Assembly: GCA_021807105.1 (NCBI GenBank)
Contig: JAKAPL010000010.1
Coordinates: 1-64,000 of the forward strand
DNA: 64,000 nt
Reading direction: 5' to 3'
Source of the DNA: Myxococcales bacterium
GTDB taxonomy: Bacteria > Myxococcota > Myxococcia > Myxococcales > JAKAPL01
The notes under the pieces were generated by a model. That model was not told the origin of the DNA, searched no databases, and worked only from the letters and a program-made list of their open reading frames with translations. Below are positions 11,084 to 16,780 of this stretch, in pieces. The position numbers and the translations under genes are program-made. The first letter of the stretch is position 1. Each line of letters begins with the position of its first letter.

Positions 11084-11485
11084 CTACCGCTGCCAGCCGC
11101 GCTCCTCGACGAGCCGCTGGACACGGCCCTGGATCTCGTCGCGGAGCGCGCGGACCCGCTCGATCGTCTGGCCCCTCGGGTCCACGAGCTGCCAGTCCTC
11201 GTGCGGCAGGCCGGGGACGTGCGGGCAGGCGTCGCCGCAGCCCATCGTGACGAGGAGCTGCGCCTGGCGCGCCAGCTCGTCGGTCAGCCGCCGGGGCACC
11301 GCGGCCGCGAGGTCGATGCCGATCTCGGCGAGGACGGCGACCACCTCCGGCTGTACCCGCTCGGCCGGCCGCGTCCCCGCCGACAGGGTGCAGGCCTTGG
11401 CCGGGTCGGCGGCGGCCGTGAAGAGCGCGGCCGCGAGCTGGGAGCGGCCGGCGTTGTGGACGCAGGCGAACAGGACGGTGGTCAC
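11084..11485 (-). CDS. arsC: Arsenate reductase, LMW-phosphatase/thioredoxin-coupled type
   Basis: The enzyme reduces arsenate to arsenite with a Cys relay, in the cytoplasm. The 133-residue protein opens [20 protein letters not shown], the CX5R phosphatase loop (CVHNAGR) of this class. [12 protein letters not shown] supplies the second and third redox Cys. The GTG start overlaps the acr3 stop as GTGA. It is the last gene of the arsenic operon. Enzymes of this type are re-reduced by thioredoxin; the operon's own thioredoxin-like protein appears membrane-anchored, so a housekeeping thioredoxin may serve instead. Confidence 0.93.
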
Positions 11486-12555
11486 GCGGGGGCCTCACGG
11501 GGGAAGCGACGCTCCAGCCGGAGCGCGACGTTGACGAGACCGATCAGGACGGGCACCTCCACGAGGGGGCCGATGATGGCCGCGAAGGCGGCGTCGCTGT
11601 GGACCCCGAACGTGCCGATGGCCACCGCGAGCGCGAGCTCGAAGTTGTTGGAGGCAGCCGTGAACGACAGGGTCGCGCACTGGGGGTAGCTCGCGCGTGC
11701 GCGCCGGCTCATCGCGAACGAAGCAGCGAACATCAGCACGAAGTAGAAGAGCAGCGGGAGCGCGACGCGGACGGCGTCGAGCGGCAGCCTCAGGATGGCC
11801 TCGCCCTGGAGCGAGAACATCACCACGATGGTGAAGAGCAACGCCACCAACGTGAGCGGCGCGATCCGGGGCGCGAAGACGCCGTCATACCACTCTGCCC
11901 CTCTGGCCGAGAGGAGGGTACGCCGCACGAGGAAGCCGGCGGCGAACGGGATCCCGAGGTAGACGGCCACGCTCCGCGCGATCTCGACGATGCCGATCGT
12001 ACCCGCCGCCCCGACCGCGGCCACGGGCAGCCCGAGCCAGCGCGGCAGGACGGTCGCGAAGAACCACGCGTAGGCCGAGAAGAAGACGAGCTGGAAGATC
12101 GAATTCAGCGCCACGAGGCCGGCCGCAAGCTCGCGATCGCCGTGCCCGAGATCGTTCCAGACGATCACCATCGCGATGCAGCGGGCGAGGCCGATGAGGA
12201 TGACGCCGGCCATGTAGCCCGGCTGGCCACGCAGGAAGAGGGCTGCGAGCGCGAACATCAGGATCGGCCCCACGATCCAGTTCTGGACGAGCGAGAGGGC
12301 GAGCACGCGCTGGTTGCGGAACACCAGCCCGAGCCGCTCGTAACGGACCCGGGCGAGCGGGGGGAACATCATCACGATCAGCCCCACCGCGATGGGGAGG
12401 GAGGTCGTCCCGACGCTCATCCGGTTCAGCGCCGGAGTCACCGACGGCGCGACATGGCTGATCCAGACGCCCGCACCCATGGCGAGGAAGATCCAGACCG
12501 TGAGGTAGCGGTCCAAGACACCCAACTTCTTGGCGGCGCCGTCGGGGTTCGTCAT
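11482..12555 (-). CDS. acr3: Arsenite efflux permease, ACR3 family
   Basis: A ten-helix carrier that exports arsenite across the inner membrane, driven by the proton motive force and possibly assisted by ArsA. The N terminus ([22 protein letters not shown]) and the helix with the family Cys and nearby polar residues ([31 protein letters not shown]) are typical of ACR3 rather than ArsB. The chosen ATG at 12555 has GGGAGGG just upstream and begins MTNPDG; the ORF-track GTG adds four codons. It lies 15 bases after ccdA. Length (357 residues) is normal. Confidence 0.92.
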
Positions 12556-12570
12556 CGTCCCTCCCACGGC

Positions 12571-13269
12571 TCATGCACGGTAGATGAGCAGCCCGGCGCC
12601 GAGCAGCAGCAGAAGGCCGCAGAGGCTCTTCACGGCGGCGAGCGCCTTCGAGCGCGCGTTCCATTTCAGATAGCGCTGCACCACGTCCGCCGACGACCCG
12701 GCGAGTCCGATCAGCCCGCAGTGTCCGACCCCGAAGGCAAGGAAGAGGGCCGCGGCGAGGATCGGCTCAGAGCCCGCGCGCCCGAAGGTCACCCCGAGGA
12801 CCGGGGCCAGGAACGCGAACGTGCACGGGCTCAAGCCGATTCCGAAGAGCGCGCCGAGCAGGGCGACGGCCAGGGCCCCTCCTCGGGGTCTCCCCTCGAT
12901 CGACAGGCCCCGAAACGGGAGGCGCACGACCCGGAGCAGATAGAGGCCCGACACGAGGAACAGCGCCGCGACGCCGTAGTTCGTCACGGCGCCGAGGCCC
13001 TGAACCGCGTAGCCCGCCGCGGCCACGACCAGGCCCAGCACAGCGAGCGCGACCAGCATCCCGCCCGCGAACGCGAAGGAAAGGCGTGCCGCGCGACCGG
13101 GCTCGTCCCCGTCCACCCCGGTCCCGACGAATCCGACGACGAGCGGGATCATCCCGAGGTGGCAGGGGCTCAGCAGCACGCTGAGGACCCCCCAGAGCAG
13201 CGACGCGCCGAGCGCCAACGCTGTAGAGGCCCCGAGGGCACCCGTCACCCTGAACACGAGGTCGTTCAT
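12571..13269 (-). CDS. CcdA/DsbD-type thiol-disulfide membrane transporter
   Basis: The 232-residue protein has six or more membrane segments and two characteristic Cys-Pro motifs, LLSPCHLGMIPLVVGFVG in helix 1 and IGLSPCTFAFLAPVLGV in helix 4. Proteins of this family carry electrons from cytoplasmic thioredoxin to periplasmic thiols. ATG 13269 starts the conserved region and overlaps the stop of the thioredoxin gene by four bases. CcdA-plus-thioredoxin pairs are seen in some arsenic operons and are thought to keep thiols reduced under arsenic stress; that role is inferred here. Confidence 0.85.
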   Translation of the reverse strand: MNDLVFRVTGALGASTALALGASLLWGVLSVLLSPCHLGMIPLVVGFVGTGVDGDEPGRAARLSFAFAGGMLVALAVLGLVVAAAGYAVQGLGAVTNYGVAALFLVSGLYLLRVVRLPFRGLSIEGRPRGGALAVALLGALFGIGLSPCTFAFLAPVLGVTFGRAGSEPILAAALFLAFGVGHCGLIGLAGSSADVVQRYLKWNARSKALAAVKSLCGLLLLLGAGLLIYRA

Positions 13270-13742
13270 GGCACGCGACCCGGCCGCGCTTTGCCGAGGC
13301 CGTAACCGAGCGCCGACCATTCGGCGACCACCGCATCGGTGGGCATGATGCCGACGTGGCGGAAAAGCTCCCTGCCATCGGGACTAAAGAAGATCTGTGT
13401 GGGGATCATCCGGATCCCGTACTTGTCCATGGCCTCCGGGTGCTCCGCCGTGTTCACGAACTCGGCCCGCAGGGCGTCTGGGTATTGCCGCTCGAGCTCG
13501 GACATCACCCCGATCATGACCTTGCACGGCGCGCAGCTCGTCATGCCGAAGTCCACGATCCGCGGCAAGGAGCGCCCGGCCGCCGCCGCGGTGCCCACCC
13601 CCGGCGAAGAGTGCCCCCCTCCCGGAGCGAGGAGTGGATGCGCCTTGAGCACCACGGGAACCGCCACGACCACCGCGCCGATCGAGAGCGCCGCGAGGAC
13701 GGACTTCGCGGACGTCGCGTGACGGGCCGACTCGTCAACCAT
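13266..13742 (-). CDS. Membrane-anchored thioredoxin-like protein
   Basis: This 158-residue protein has an N-terminal anchor or signal (SVLAALSIGAVVVAVPVVLKA) and a thioredoxin fold with the active site FGMTSCAPCKVMI. The cis-Pro loop reads GIRMIPTQIFF and is followed by SPDGRELFRHVG. The domain should face the periplasm, where the neighbouring CcdA-type protein could reduce it. Its start lies inside the end of arsA (ATGGTTGA, eight-base overlap), so translation is probably coupled. Confidence 0.88.
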   Translation of the reverse strand: MVDESARHATSAKSVLAALSIGAVVVAVPVVLKAHPLLAPGGGHSSPGVGTAAAAGRSLPRIVDFGMTSCAPCKVMIGVMSELERQYPDALRAEFVNTAEHPEAMDKYGIRMIPTQIFFSPDGRELFRHVGIMPTDAVVAEWSALGYGLGKARPGRVP

Positions 13743-15714
13743 GAAGGATCTCCTCGGACCGTGAATAAGACGGGCTCAGGGGTGTTGGGGCCTCTGGCGC
13801 GCCCGCTCGCCAGGCTTCGAGCACGAGACGAGGCGCATGGCGCGCGAGGTCGCGTAGAAACGGCGCCTCGTGCGCTCGCCGAGACCGCAGCACCGGGTCG
13901 CTCACGTCCAACGGGGTGAGACTCTGGTTCACGATCCAGGCGAAGGGCTGGATTTCCGCGCGCGAGAGGTCCCGCTCGAGCTGCATCGCCTCGTGAACCG
14001 GCGTCGCTTCCGGAAGCGTGACGAGGAGCACGCGGGTGTAGTCCGGGTCCCGCAGCCTGGGCAGGAGCCGTTGCACGGCGTCGGGGCTCCCGCTCGGCTT
14101 GCGCAGGACCTCGCGGTGGTAGGCCTCGGCGGCGTCGAGCAGGAGGAGCGTGTGGCCCGTCGGGGCCGTGTCGATGACCACGAATCGGTCCTCGCCCTGC
14201 GCCACCGTCTCGGCGAACGCACGGAACACCGCGATCTCCTCGGTGCAGGGGCTGCGAAGATCCTCTTCGAGCAACGCCTTGCCCTGCGCGTCGAGATCCC
14301 CGCCCGCCGCGGACAGCACCTCTTCGGTGTAGCGCCGGGTCTCTGCCGCGGGATCGATGCGTGTCACGTCGAGCCAGGACCCGGCGGGGCCCAGTTCCCG
14401 CGCGGCCTGCTCGACGTGGGCGGCCGGGTCCGTCGTGGTGAGCGTGACCGGATAGCCCCGGCGGGAGAGCTCGCCGGCGAGTCGAGCCGCGACGGTCGTC
14501 TTCCCGACGCCGCCCTTGCCCATCGTCATCACGACGCCCTTGCCCTGCCTCGCGATCGCGTCGACCAGCGCCTCGATTGAATACTCTGGCCTTTCGGCCT
14601 CCGCCCGTCGGCCGGCGGAGCCGGCCTCCTCCATTGGATGCTCCGGCCTTTCGGCCTCTGCCCGTCGGCCGGCGGAGCCGGCCTCCTCCATTGGATGCTC
14701 CGGCCTTTCGGCCTCTGCCCGTCGGCCGGCGGAGCCGGCCTCCTCCATTGGATGCTCCGGCCTTTCGGCCTCCGCCCGTCGGCCGGCGGAGCCGGCCTCC
14801 TCCATTGGATGCTCCGGCCTTTCGGCCTCCGCCCGCGTGCCCAGTTTGCGAAGCGCGTCGAGTCCTACGAGCCCGAACGGCAGCAGCGGGAGCTCGATCC
14901 GTGCCAGATCGCGCAAGCCCACGGGCAGTCCTCCGAGCGAGGCAGCGCCCCGGGCCTCCATGGCGACGGCCGTGGCGTCGCTCGCATCCCGCGCCCGGAA
15001 GACACCGTTCAGGACGAGTTGAACGTTCGCGACCCCCAGCAGGGCCAGTTCGGCCCGGGTGCGTTCAGCTTCGGCGAGGGAAGACCGCTCGGGCCGCGCG
15101 ACCAGCACCAACGTCGTCTGCGCGGGATCGCGGAGCGCGGCATTGGACGCCGCGTACAGCGCCCGTTGCGCGGTCAACCCGCCGAGCGGACCGAGACAGG
15201 AGGTTGCGCCGACGTTCGTGTCGATGAAGCTCGACCAGGCGGCCGGCAGCTCGAGCAGGCGCAGGGTATGCCCCGTCGGCGCGGTGTCGAAGAGGACGTG
15301 GTCGAACCCGGCCGTCGCAGTCTCGTCGCCGAGCAGCTTCGAGAACTCGTCGAACGCCGCGATCTCGACGGTGCAGGCGCCCGAGAGCTGCTCCTCGATG
15401 CTGGCCACGGCGGCTGCCGGCAAGACGCCACGGTACGGTCCGACCACACGTTCGCGGTATGCCTGCGCGGCCCGTTCGGGATCGACGTTCAGCGCCGAGA
15501 GGCCCCGCGCGCCCGGCACCTGCGTCGGGGCCGAGGTGAGCGTCACGCCGAGCACCTCATCGAGGTTCGAGGCCGGGTCAGTGCTTACGAGGAGCACCCG
15601 CCGGCCCGCGTCCGCGAGCCCCAGGGCCGTCGCGCAGGCCAGGGACGTCTTGCCGACGCCCCCTTTGCCTGTGAAGAAGAGGATGCGGGTCGGATTCTCG
15701 ACGAGAGAGGGCAT
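13735..15714 (-). CDS. arsA: Arsenite-stimulated ATPase, tandem-domain ArsA
   Basis: The 659-residue protein has two homologous ATPase halves. The first carries FFTGKGGVGKTSLACAT and DTAPTGHTLRLLELP; the second carries TMGKGGVGKTTVAARLA and DTAPTGHTLLLLDAAE. Metalloid-binding Cys equivalents are visible in SGACTVEIAAF, TSCLGPLGG and RSPCTEEIAVF, corresponding to the three Cys of the E. coli enzyme. ArsA receives arsenite from ArsD and energises export. The linker is expanded by four 19-residue repeats. The last residues before the stop come from a family A element end. It lies 12 bases after arsD and overlaps the thioredoxin gene. Confidence 0.95.
   Translation of the reverse strand: MPSLVENPTRILFFTGKGGVGKTSLACATALGLADAGRRVLLVSTDPASNLDEVLGVTLTSAPTQVPGARGLSALNVDPERAAQAYRERVVGPYRGVLPAAAVASIEEQLSGACTVEIAAFDEFSKLLGDETATAGFDHVLFDTAPTGHTLRLLELPAAWSSFIDTNVGATSCLGPLGGLTAQRALYAASNAALRDPAQTTLVLVARPERSSLAEAERTRAELALLGVANVQLVLNGVFRARDASDATAVAMEARGAASLGGLPVGLRDLARIELPLLPFGLVGLDALRKLGTRAEAERPEHPMEEAGSAGRRAEAERPEHPMEEAGSAGRRAEAERPEHPMEEAGSAGRRAEAERPEHPMEEAGSAGRRAEAERPEYSIEALVDAIARQGKGVVMTMGKGGVGKTTVAARLAGELSRRGYPVTLTTTDPAAHVEQAARELGPAGSWLDVTRIDPAAETRRYTEEVLSAAGGDLDAQGKALLEEDLRSPCTEEIAVFRAFAETVAQGEDRFVVIDTAPTGHTLLLLDAAEAYHREVLRKPSGSPDAVQRLLPRLRDPDYTRVLLVTLPEATPVHEAMQLERDLSRAEIQPFAWIVNQSLTPLDVSDPVLRSRRAHEAPFLRDLARHAPRLVLEAWRAGAPEAPTPLSPSYSRSEEILHG
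13755..13775. mobile_element. Solitary right end of element A inside arsA
   Basis: CGGACCGTGAATAAGACGGGC matches the terminal bases of element A copy 1 and is followed by TCAGG, as in copy 1. No other part of the element remains. Read on the minus strand it encodes part of the last residues of ArsA (SPSYSRS). It may be what is left after deletion of a full copy. Confidence 0.65.
14581..14837 (-). repeat. In-frame 57-bp tandem repeat in the ArsA linker
   Basis: Four near-identical 57-bp units begin at 14581, 14638, 14695 and 14752, with a partial unit at 14809. Each encodes a 19-residue block (AEAERPEHPMEEAGSAGRR) between the two ATPase halves. Differences are few (CCTCTG/CCTCCG), so the array is recent or homogenised. 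The period keeps the reading frame. Confidence 0.9.
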
Positions 15715-15726
15715 CGCGGCGCTCCT

Positions 15727-16353
15727 TCAGCAGCAGCTCTTCTTCTGCGCCGTCGCCCTCTCCGCGGTCGACGAACCGCAGCAACTGCCCGACTTGGCCT
15801 CGGCAACCGTGACCTCGCCCCCGCCACCGCCGAGGTACCGATCGATGAGCTCGCGCAGCGCCTTGGCCGGCGTCTCCCTCACGGTCTGCGCGACCATCGC
15901 CGCGCGGAGCATGTCGTCTCGCGACACGCCCAGCTTCCGGGCCGCGTCGTAGTGGAACCGGAAGCAGGGCTCACAACCGGAACCAATGGCCGCTCCGATG
16001 GCGACGAGTTCGGACACCGGCTCCGTGAAGAGACTCGGTGCGGGCAGGTCGACGCCAGCCCATCCGGCGAGCTCGGCGCGCGACGGATAGACACCGCTGC
16101 TCTTGATCTCACCGTTCACCTTCACGAGCGGCAGGCCTGCGTCGCCCTTTGTCTCCAGGACCGCCTTCACCGCGGCGTCCTCGGCGAACGCGCCCGGCTG
16201 CTGGCCGAGATTGAAGCGCTCGACAGCCGCCCCCTGACCCGCGAGCCAATCGAGGTCGGCCGCGAAACGGACGAGCTTCGGGTCGACGGAAGGACCACAG
16301 ACTCCGCTCGAGCAGCACATCGCGGGATCGAAGACACGAATCACGGCAGGCAT
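15727..16353 (-). CDS. arsD: ArsD metallochaperone fused to an AhpD/carboxymuconolactone decarboxylase-like domain
   Basis: This 208-residue protein begins MPAVIRVFDPAMCCSSGVCG, the ArsD arsenite site with a Cys pair plus a third Cys. The ArsD part runs to about residue 105 (GLPLVKVNGEIKSSGVYP). Residues about 110-175 are an AhpD-like domain with the redox motif GCEPCFRFHYDAARKLGV. The tail has two further Cys pairs (SCCGSS and KKSCC), seen in some ArsD proteins. ArsD passes arsenite to ArsA, whose gene is next. The added CxxC domain could give thiol-reductase or peroxidase activity. ATG 16353 is used because the upstream ORF extension is not conserved-looking. Confidence 0.88.
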   Translation of the reverse strand: MPAVIRVFDPAMCCSSGVCGPSVDPKLVRFAADLDWLAGQGAAVERFNLGQQPGAFAEDAAVKAVLETKGDAGLPLVKVNGEIKSSGVYPSRAELAGWAGVDLPAPSLFTEPVSELVAIGAAIGSGCEPCFRFHYDAARKLGVSRDDMLRAAMVAQTVRETPAKALRELIDRYLGGGGGEVTVAEAKSGSCCGSSTAERATAQKKSCC

Positions 16354-16382
16354 GGGGCTTCCTTTCGTCGTGAGGCGAGAGT

Positions 16383-16745
16383 TCACGAACACGCGCGCGG
16401 GCCCAGTTCGCGGGTCAGCCGCCCGACGATCGCCCGCGTCGACGCCGATCGCCGGAACCGGCGGACCAGAGCTCCGAGCTGAGCCGCGCAGGCGGGATCG
16501 GGCGGCCGCGCGAGCCGGTAGTGAATCCAGCGCTGGTTGCGGCGCGTCTCGACGATCCCCGCGGCGCGGAGGGTCCCGAGCTGGCGCGAGGTCGTCGATT
16601 GTGGCAGCCCGAGCGCCGCTTGGAGGTGGCAGACACAGAGCTCACGCTGGGCGAGCAGGGCCACCATGCCGAGTCGCACGGGGTCCCCGAGCGCCCTATG
16701 AAACTGCGCCAGCGGGCCCAGGTCGCCAATGGGGTGCGCATTCAC
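16383..16745 (-). CDS. arsR: ArsR-family metalloregulatory repressor
   Basis: The 120-residue winged-helix protein contains RELCVCHLQAALGLPQSTTS, the classic As(III)-binding CVCHL motif next to the recognition helix, and the wing RRNQRWIHYRL. It should repress the operon until arsenite binds. It is first in the operon, 29 bases upstream of arsD. The start is GTG 16745. A promoter whose -10 hexamer lies six bases before it implies a leaderless message. Confidence 0.93.
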   Translation of the reverse strand: MNAHPIGDLGPLAQFHRALGDPVRLGMVALLAQRELCVCHLQAALGLPQSTTSRQLGTLRAAGIVETRRNQRWIHYRLARPPDPACAAQLGALVRRFRRSASTRAIVGRLTRELGPRACS

Positions 16746-16751
16746 GTATTC

Positions 16752-16780
16752 AGTTTAACGGATGTAGCGTTCAGCGTCAA
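16752..16780 (-). promoter_or_regulatory. ars operon promoter, leaderless
   Basis: Minus-strand TTGACG (16775-16780), a 17-bp spacer and TAAACT (16752-16757), then six bases to GTG 16745. The +1 should coincide with the start codon. The region is locally AT-rich compared with its surroundings. An ArsR operator would be expected to overlap, but no clear dyad is seen. Confidence 0.6.

Follow-up and report, generated by a model that had tools for sequence, protein, structure and literature searches.

A widespread and apparently undescribed form of the arsenic metallochaperone ArsD carrying an AhpD-like domain

Introduction

Carriers of As(III) are usually viewed as passive thiol shuttles. The locus described here raises the question of why such a carrier would hold an AhpD-like domain within the same polypeptide, and what that domain might do for it. 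The gene lies in the window, i.e., the whole stretch of 64,000 nucleotides that was analysed from a Myxococcales contig. The original prediction, made from the letters and their open reading frames, described an ArsD metallochaperone that continues in one frame into an AhpD-like domain with a CxxC motif (referred to here as CMD) and a tail with two cysteine pairs. It further proposed that the fusion joins arsenite delivery to a thiol redox module in an operon that also encodes a thioredoxin and CcdA.

Results

The one-frame fusion was confirmed, and its predicted coordinates proved exact. The gene, arsD-CMD (15727..16353, minus strand), starts with an ATG at 16353, ends with a stop codon at 15727-15729 that is included in these coordinates, and encodes 208 amino acids with neither internal stops nor in-frame TGA codons. 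A Shine-Dalgarno sequence (AAAGGAAG; 16358-16365, minus strand) lies ahead of the ATG, and the genome (a 3.76-Mb assembly of 129 contigs) contains one copy of the gene. Pfam assigned residues 5-104 to ArsD (PF06953; 1.5e-40, 138.7 bits against a cut-off of 27) and residues 114-164 to CMD (PF02627; 4.7e-9, 36.5 bits against a cut-off of 23). In NCBIfam, the first half matched the chaperon_ArsD equivalog NF033727 (2.9e-35; 120.7 bits, cut-off 90), while matches to the second half were led by ArsM_AhpD_UU (7.6e-8), followed by MduS (8.7e-7) and ahpD_dom (2.1e-5). In a sequence search of the PDB, the first half retrieved ArsD structures, and the second gave only weak CMD matches. Both Pfam families were found (CMD at E<=0.01) in all 41 fusions of the alignment termed A2, which excludes a chance combination of the two domains. 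A frameshift or assembly artefact is ruled out by the recurrence of this in-frame fusion across independent genomes (44 of 80 loci).

The ArsD core (residues 1-104; 16042..16353, minus strand) has a thioredoxin-like fold and corresponds by both sequence and fold to 3mwh, 3kgk and 3ktb (Foldseek TM-scores, normalised to the target, of 0.87-0.90). It is followed by the all-helical CMD/AhpD-like domain (residues 105-176; 15826..16041, minus strand), the fold of which resembles 3bey, 2cwq, 1vke and RclX (7y4r), and by a disordered tail that carries two pairs of vicinal cysteines (15730..15825, minus strand; pLDDT about 50-57). The AlphaFold2 model, which was built from alignment A2, confidently predicts two folded domains, one ArsD-like and one CMD-like, plus a flexible tail (mean pLDDT 88; both domains mostly >90; last 30 residues disordered). 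The orientation and packing of the domains are uncertain given a pTM of 0.63.

Alignment of 45 fusions showed that Cys13, Cys14 and Cys19 of the ArsD core are invariant. These residues make up the As(III) trithiol, Cys13-Cys14-x4-Cys19 (16297..16317, minus strand), and are equivalent to the cysteines used for chaperoning by R773 ArsD, namely Cys12, Cys13 and Cys18 (PMC4562236, citing Lin et al. 2007). In the CMD domain, Cys127 and His134 were present in all 45 fusions and Glu115 and Cys130 in 44 (15952..16011, minus strand). Their spacing (12, 3, 4) is the same as that of Glu118, Cys130, Cys133 and His137 of Mtb AhpD, and is also seen in PA0269 (PMC3141380). Judged by this alignment, all but one of the five residues of the AhpD proton relay are retained, and their near-invariance at AhpD spacing argues that the active site has been kept, beyond the mere fold. 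The AhpD-likeness of the second half, on which the original prediction depended, thus withstood a profile search, with CMD over its cut-off and most of the relay in place. The fifth relay position (His132 or Tyr in AhpD) is Pro129 in the window protein and Pro in 36 of the 45 fusions, which would speak against strong peroxidase activity. A few fusions depart from the pattern: one CMD cysteine is lost in L044 and L186 (CEPG in each), both are lost in L179, and the tail cysteines are absent from L025 and L032. The site is therefore dispensable in some fusions.

The tail with two Cys pairs is present as predicted, but it is not part of the added module. When aligned with the nearest CMD-less ArsDs, the terminal Cys pairs match the ordinary ArsD tail, and the CMD domain has therefore been inserted between the ArsD core and this tail. 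Both pairs are found in 23 of the 44 fused tails and in 23 of the 42 tails of plain ArsD. The tail of R773 ArsD, a protein that is also a weak repressor, carries Cys112-113 and Cys119-120, and these have been linked to its repressor role (PMC4562236).

arsD-CMD is the second gene of a tightly packed operon on the minus strand with the order arsR-arsD-arsA-trx-ccdA-acr3-arsC. A single promoter-like, sigma-70-like site (16752-16780) was found directly upstream of arsR (16383..16745), which encodes an ArsR/SmtB repressor with an ELCVC motif (NF033788, 1.8e-23). Starting 12 nt downstream of arsD-CMD, arsA (13735..15714) encodes a two-domain arsenite pump ATPase of 659 aa (TIGR04291, 1.2e-222). The next genes encode a thioredoxin-like protein with an N-terminal membrane anchor and CAPC as its CxxC (13266..13742; Pfam Thioredoxin, 1.1e-9) and a CcdA/DsbD transmembrane protein whose likely start is the ATG at 13269 (12571..13320; Pfam DsbD_TM, 3.7e-10). 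The operon ends with the arsenite efflux permease gene acr3 (11482..12567; TIGR00832, 1.1e-127) and arsC (11084..11485), which encodes an arsenate reductase of the LMW-phosphatase type (Pfam LMWPc, 3.5e-17; TIGR02689, 2.5e-18, below its cut-off). Within arsA, a 57-bp tandem repeat (14571-14835; 4.6 copies, 97% match) runs in frame, and its 19-aa unit (RAEAERPEHPMEEAGSAGR) lies in the linker joining the two ATPase halves.

The thioredoxin and CcdA were correctly predicted to be in the operon, as Pfam and NCBIfam both indicate, but a specific tie to the fusion did not hold. Homologues of the two adjoin 5 of the 44 fused ArsD loci and 7 of the 36 plain ones (Fisher p 0.36). The fusion does not follow these genes, and a dedicated partnership was rejected as non-specific. 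Both proteins have been reported in ars operons in the passages on this subject by Castillo and Saier 2010 (PMC2963123). Within the fetched stretch, arsA was present at 36 of the 44 fused loci, and arsC at 23 of the 44 fused and 18 of the 36 plain loci (p = 1.0). The frequencies of arsA, acr3 and arsC did not differ significantly between the 44 fused and 36 plain loci, in a comparison that is coarse because contig ends truncate some loci.

To survey the distribution of the fusion, one genome per species was scanned for about 85,000 species, and the 80 best ArsD loci were taken and translated. The search for further fusions, as the original prediction had suggested, was productive: the CMD domain was present in 44 of these 80 loci and in about 11 phyla, although the frequency is biased because the scan patterns came from the window's own alignment. 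The 44 fused loci belong to Myxococcota (14), Acidobacteriota (12), Planctomycetota (5), Actinomycetota (5) and Spirochaetota (2), with one each in Nitrospirota, Verrucomicrobiota, Pseudomonadota, Atribacterota, Thermodesulfobacteriota and a Riflebacteria MAG. Since most source genomes are MAGs, single-phylum records could be binning errors. Isolates with the fusion are Geothrix SG195, SG12 and SG184 and Anaeromyxobacter sp. PSR-1. Among 60 relatives, G003, G053, G057 and, with two copies, G031 have the fusion, and a phylum-wide search with a fusion profile added G150, G070 and G116. Plasmid carriage is unsupported: no place in PLSDB covers 80% of the ArsD-CMD query, and none of 2127 ArsD-bearing plasmid records has the full fusion. 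The genome paper of Anaeromyxobacter sp. PSR-1 lists these genes simply as arsD (PMC4432346), an example of how genome annotation conceals the CMD fusion. On a PSR-1 contig (G031), two more copies of ArsD (L015 and L016) bear another C-terminal extension (KLEECRAALSEGKLL...) with no clear Pfam match.

In a tree of ArsD cores, fused and plain rows are interleaved, with 18 changes of state, at least four of which are forced by well-supported branches. Two Anaeromyxobacteraceae copies (L007, L009) lack the CMD helices in frame and keep the linker and tail; they are apparent recent losses of the domain, judging from their sequences. An apparent TGA in L007 turned out to be the normal stop between arsD and arsA. 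In the CMD tree, which has few columns and weak support, the fused domains mostly cluster (5 changes, compared with 33 in shuffles). The core and CMD distances are correlated (Mantel r 0.57, a value reached in 0 of 2000 permutations). Taken together, these results fit best with a single joining of one CMD lineage to ArsD that was later passed on and lost several times; repeated domain shuffling could also have produced them.

A CMD profile returned ten strong matches from 189 Myxococcota genomes, eight of them fused to ArsD. With the copy in G150 as the ninth, 9 of the 11 distinct copies of this subfamily in Myxococcota are ArsD-fused, the others being L014 and L010. In L014 (1318-1857), a single frame contains the C-terminus of an ECF sigma factor, an ArsD end, CMD and the tail, and is either a recombination product or a new architecture. 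L010 is a standalone CMD in an arsR-acr3-arsC locus, and its neighbours include an ECF sigma factor as well as an ArsP permease; a TAG at this locus is the stop codon of the standalone CMD. In 14 fusion-bearing genomes from many phyla, the strongest CMD match was the fused copy, and it was the sole strong match except in Geothrix. Acidobacteriota have standalone CMD relatives as well, some of them without CxxC, and three (L160, L162, L163) adjoin an ECF sigma factor. Along with L010, these three same-lineage proteins end in a Cys pair (CC or CCG), which suggests that the CMD dithiol and a Cys-pair tail may cooperate.

Other arrangements were seen among the relatives. At L207 (4568-7744), as at L160, L162 and L163, the ECF sigma factor beside CMD has a Cys-bearing C-terminus; L207 also has an ArsP permease next to the two genes, together with an arsR-acr3-arsC locus. 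Standalone CMD and ECF sigma factor are a possible metalloid-sensing pair. In paralogous CMDs of L029 (5959-6297) and of Holophagaceae (L166-L183), NAERAFRAH replaces CxxC and the tail is very Cys-rich; in Geothrix, a CxxC-less paralogue sits between arsR and arsD-CMD. L195 and L175 each have a tandem pair of CMD matches and a Cys-rich end.

Discussion

Our studies indicate that ArsD-CMD is a real, widespread and apparently undescribed variant of ArsD. With ArsD of the R773 type (3mwh/3kgk; NF033727, PF06953), the window protein has in common the core fold, the trithiol, the Cys-pair tail, an arsA neighbour and a position after arsR; it differs by the additional AhpD-like domain of about 70 aa between core and tail. 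No description of an ArsD-CMD or ArsD-AhpD fusion was found in the open-access literature; domain databases may list the architecture. The ars operon of Castillo and Saier (PMC2963123) likewise has Trx and CcdA with arsA and arsC in the passages describing it, and these passages report no ArsD fusion; the word carboxymuconolactone does not occur in that paper.

What, then, does the inserted domain do? We tentatively favor a built-in dithiol/disulfide module that serves the chaperone's own thiols. The ArsD core would hold As(III) on its three cysteines and then hand it to ArsA. The CMD dithiol would engage in thiol-disulfide exchange with cysteines of the chaperone itself, i.e., those of the trithiol and/or the flexible tail, and could be reduced by lipoamide, thioredoxin, glutathione or another dithiol donor of the cell. 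ArsD would thereby stay reduced and able to bind As(III), so that delivery to ArsA and Acr3 might persist under thiol oxidation. Several observations are consistent with such a module: the four relay residues are as well conserved as the trithiol (44-45 of 45), both domains are confidently folded in the AlphaFold2 model next to a flexible tail, standalone CMDs of the same lineage also end in a Cys pair, the Myxococcota subfamily is nearly always attached to ArsD (9/11), and domains of this type are also seen joined to ArsM (NF041537) and in arsenosugar clusters (TIGR04169). It is less easily reconciled with the proline at the fifth relay position in 36 of 45 fusions, if strong peroxidase activity were expected, with the cysteine losses from CMD (L044, L186, L179) and tail (L025, L032), with the many close ArsD relatives that function without CMD, or with the uncertain packing of the domains (pTM 0.63). 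Tight binding of As(III) is established for vicinal or CxxC dithiols, and another possibility, nearly as likely, is that the CxxC of CMD is an extra hand-over site through which As(III) from cellular dithiols or from the ArsC product would reach the ArsD trithiol and then ArsA, perhaps by way of the swinging Cys-pair tail. The recurrence of the domain in arsenic proteins (ArsM_AhpD, arsenosugar-linked TIGR04169) and the Cys-pair tails present even on standalone CMDs would agree with hand-over. However, Glu115 and His134, which function in a proton relay rather than as As ligands, are conserved like the cysteines. Catalysis fits this better, and we favor thiol-disulfide chemistry over As(III) carriage for this reason.

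The remaining explanations appear unlikely. CMD proteins are usually oligomers, and the domain could be mainly structural, as an oligomerization unit or a dispensable passenger; the four or more losses or moves required by the ArsD tree, the in-frame deletions in Anaeromyxobacteraceae (L007, L009) and the existence of a Cys-less fusion (L179) point in this direction, but a passenger would not be expected to keep the Glu, the His and both Cys nearly invariant in about 11 phyla, and we consider this role improbable. Slightly less probable still is that CMD acts as the reductant for the operon's ArsC, with As(III) thus made beside the chaperone. An arsC gene is indeed present in the window operon and at 23 of 44 fused loci; it is equally frequent, however, beside plain ArsD (18/36, p = 1.0), and the operon has its own thioredoxin, though apparently a membrane-anchored one. 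AhpD of Mycobacterium is reduced by dihydrolipoamide, a classical As(III) target, and it is conceivable, if doubtful, that CMD docks an arsenic-bound lipoyl arm and strips As(III) via its CxxC for transfer to ArsD, ArsA and Acr3, so that lipoyl enzymes are de-poisoned. If so, ArsD would combine the work of a cytosolic carrier with that of a repair chaperone. Finally, a regulatory role in which CMD senses the redox or metalloid state seems very improbable. The standalone relatives encoded beside an ECF sigma factor whose C-terminal end bears Cys (L010/L207, L160, L162, L163) and the weak repressor activity of R773 ArsD (PMC4562236) would suit a sensor, but the repressor at the fused loci is an ordinary ArsR, and the window operon showed no ECF sigma factor.

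From its sequence, an arsenite carrier found in many phyla appears to bear a covalently attached dithiol module with an intact AhpD-type site. If the module acts on the carrier's cysteines or itself hands on As(III), it would offer a testable route for As(III) loading and retention, and would account for the repeated appearance of AhpD-like domains in arsenic proteins (ArsD, ArsM, arsenosugar clusters).

Compared with AhpD/CMD proteins in general (PF02627, TIGR00778; Mtb AhpD, PA0269, 3bey, RclX), the window protein shares the helical CMD core and E-x11-C-x2-C-x3-H, but has the catalytic helices alone (profile positions 25-75 of 84), has Pro in place of His132/Tyr, is joined to ArsD and is encoded in an operon without a peroxidase partner. 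It does not belong to AhpD proper, the alkylhydroperoxidase of the AhpC system: TIGR00777 gave 13.2 bits against a cut-off of 191.95, and Pro129 is the His132 equivalent. The GSU3128 family and TIGR04169 (arsenosugar-associated, peroxidase-like) are also small AhpD-like proteins, but they stand alone and are not joined to ArsD; of ten CMD members tested, all ten matched GSU3128_fam and four matched TIGR04169. The arsenite methyltransferase/AhpD selenoprotein ArsM_AhpD_UU (NF041537) likewise joins AhpD to an arsenic protein. There, unlike in ArsD-CMD, the partner is ArsM and the AhpD motif is CxxU with selenocysteine (PMC13188914). The window protein falls outside this family, scoring 31.5 bits (cut-off 510) over the AhpD part alone and having no in-frame TGA as a Sec codon, and no selenocysteine version of ArsD-CMD was seen among the fusions examined. 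A search of 189 Myxococcota genomes with NF041537 gave no match over the cut-off; the matches were confined to methyltransferase domains and are therefore uninformative on the AhpD part. Several ArsM-like genes of Myxococcota (L118-L125, L127) contain one in-frame TGA each and are candidate selenocysteine ArsMs. At L208 (11584-15269), what look like an Fe-S protein and a large molybdopterin-type oxidoreductase are encoded near an ars operon with arsM, and possibly take part in respiratory arsenic metabolism.
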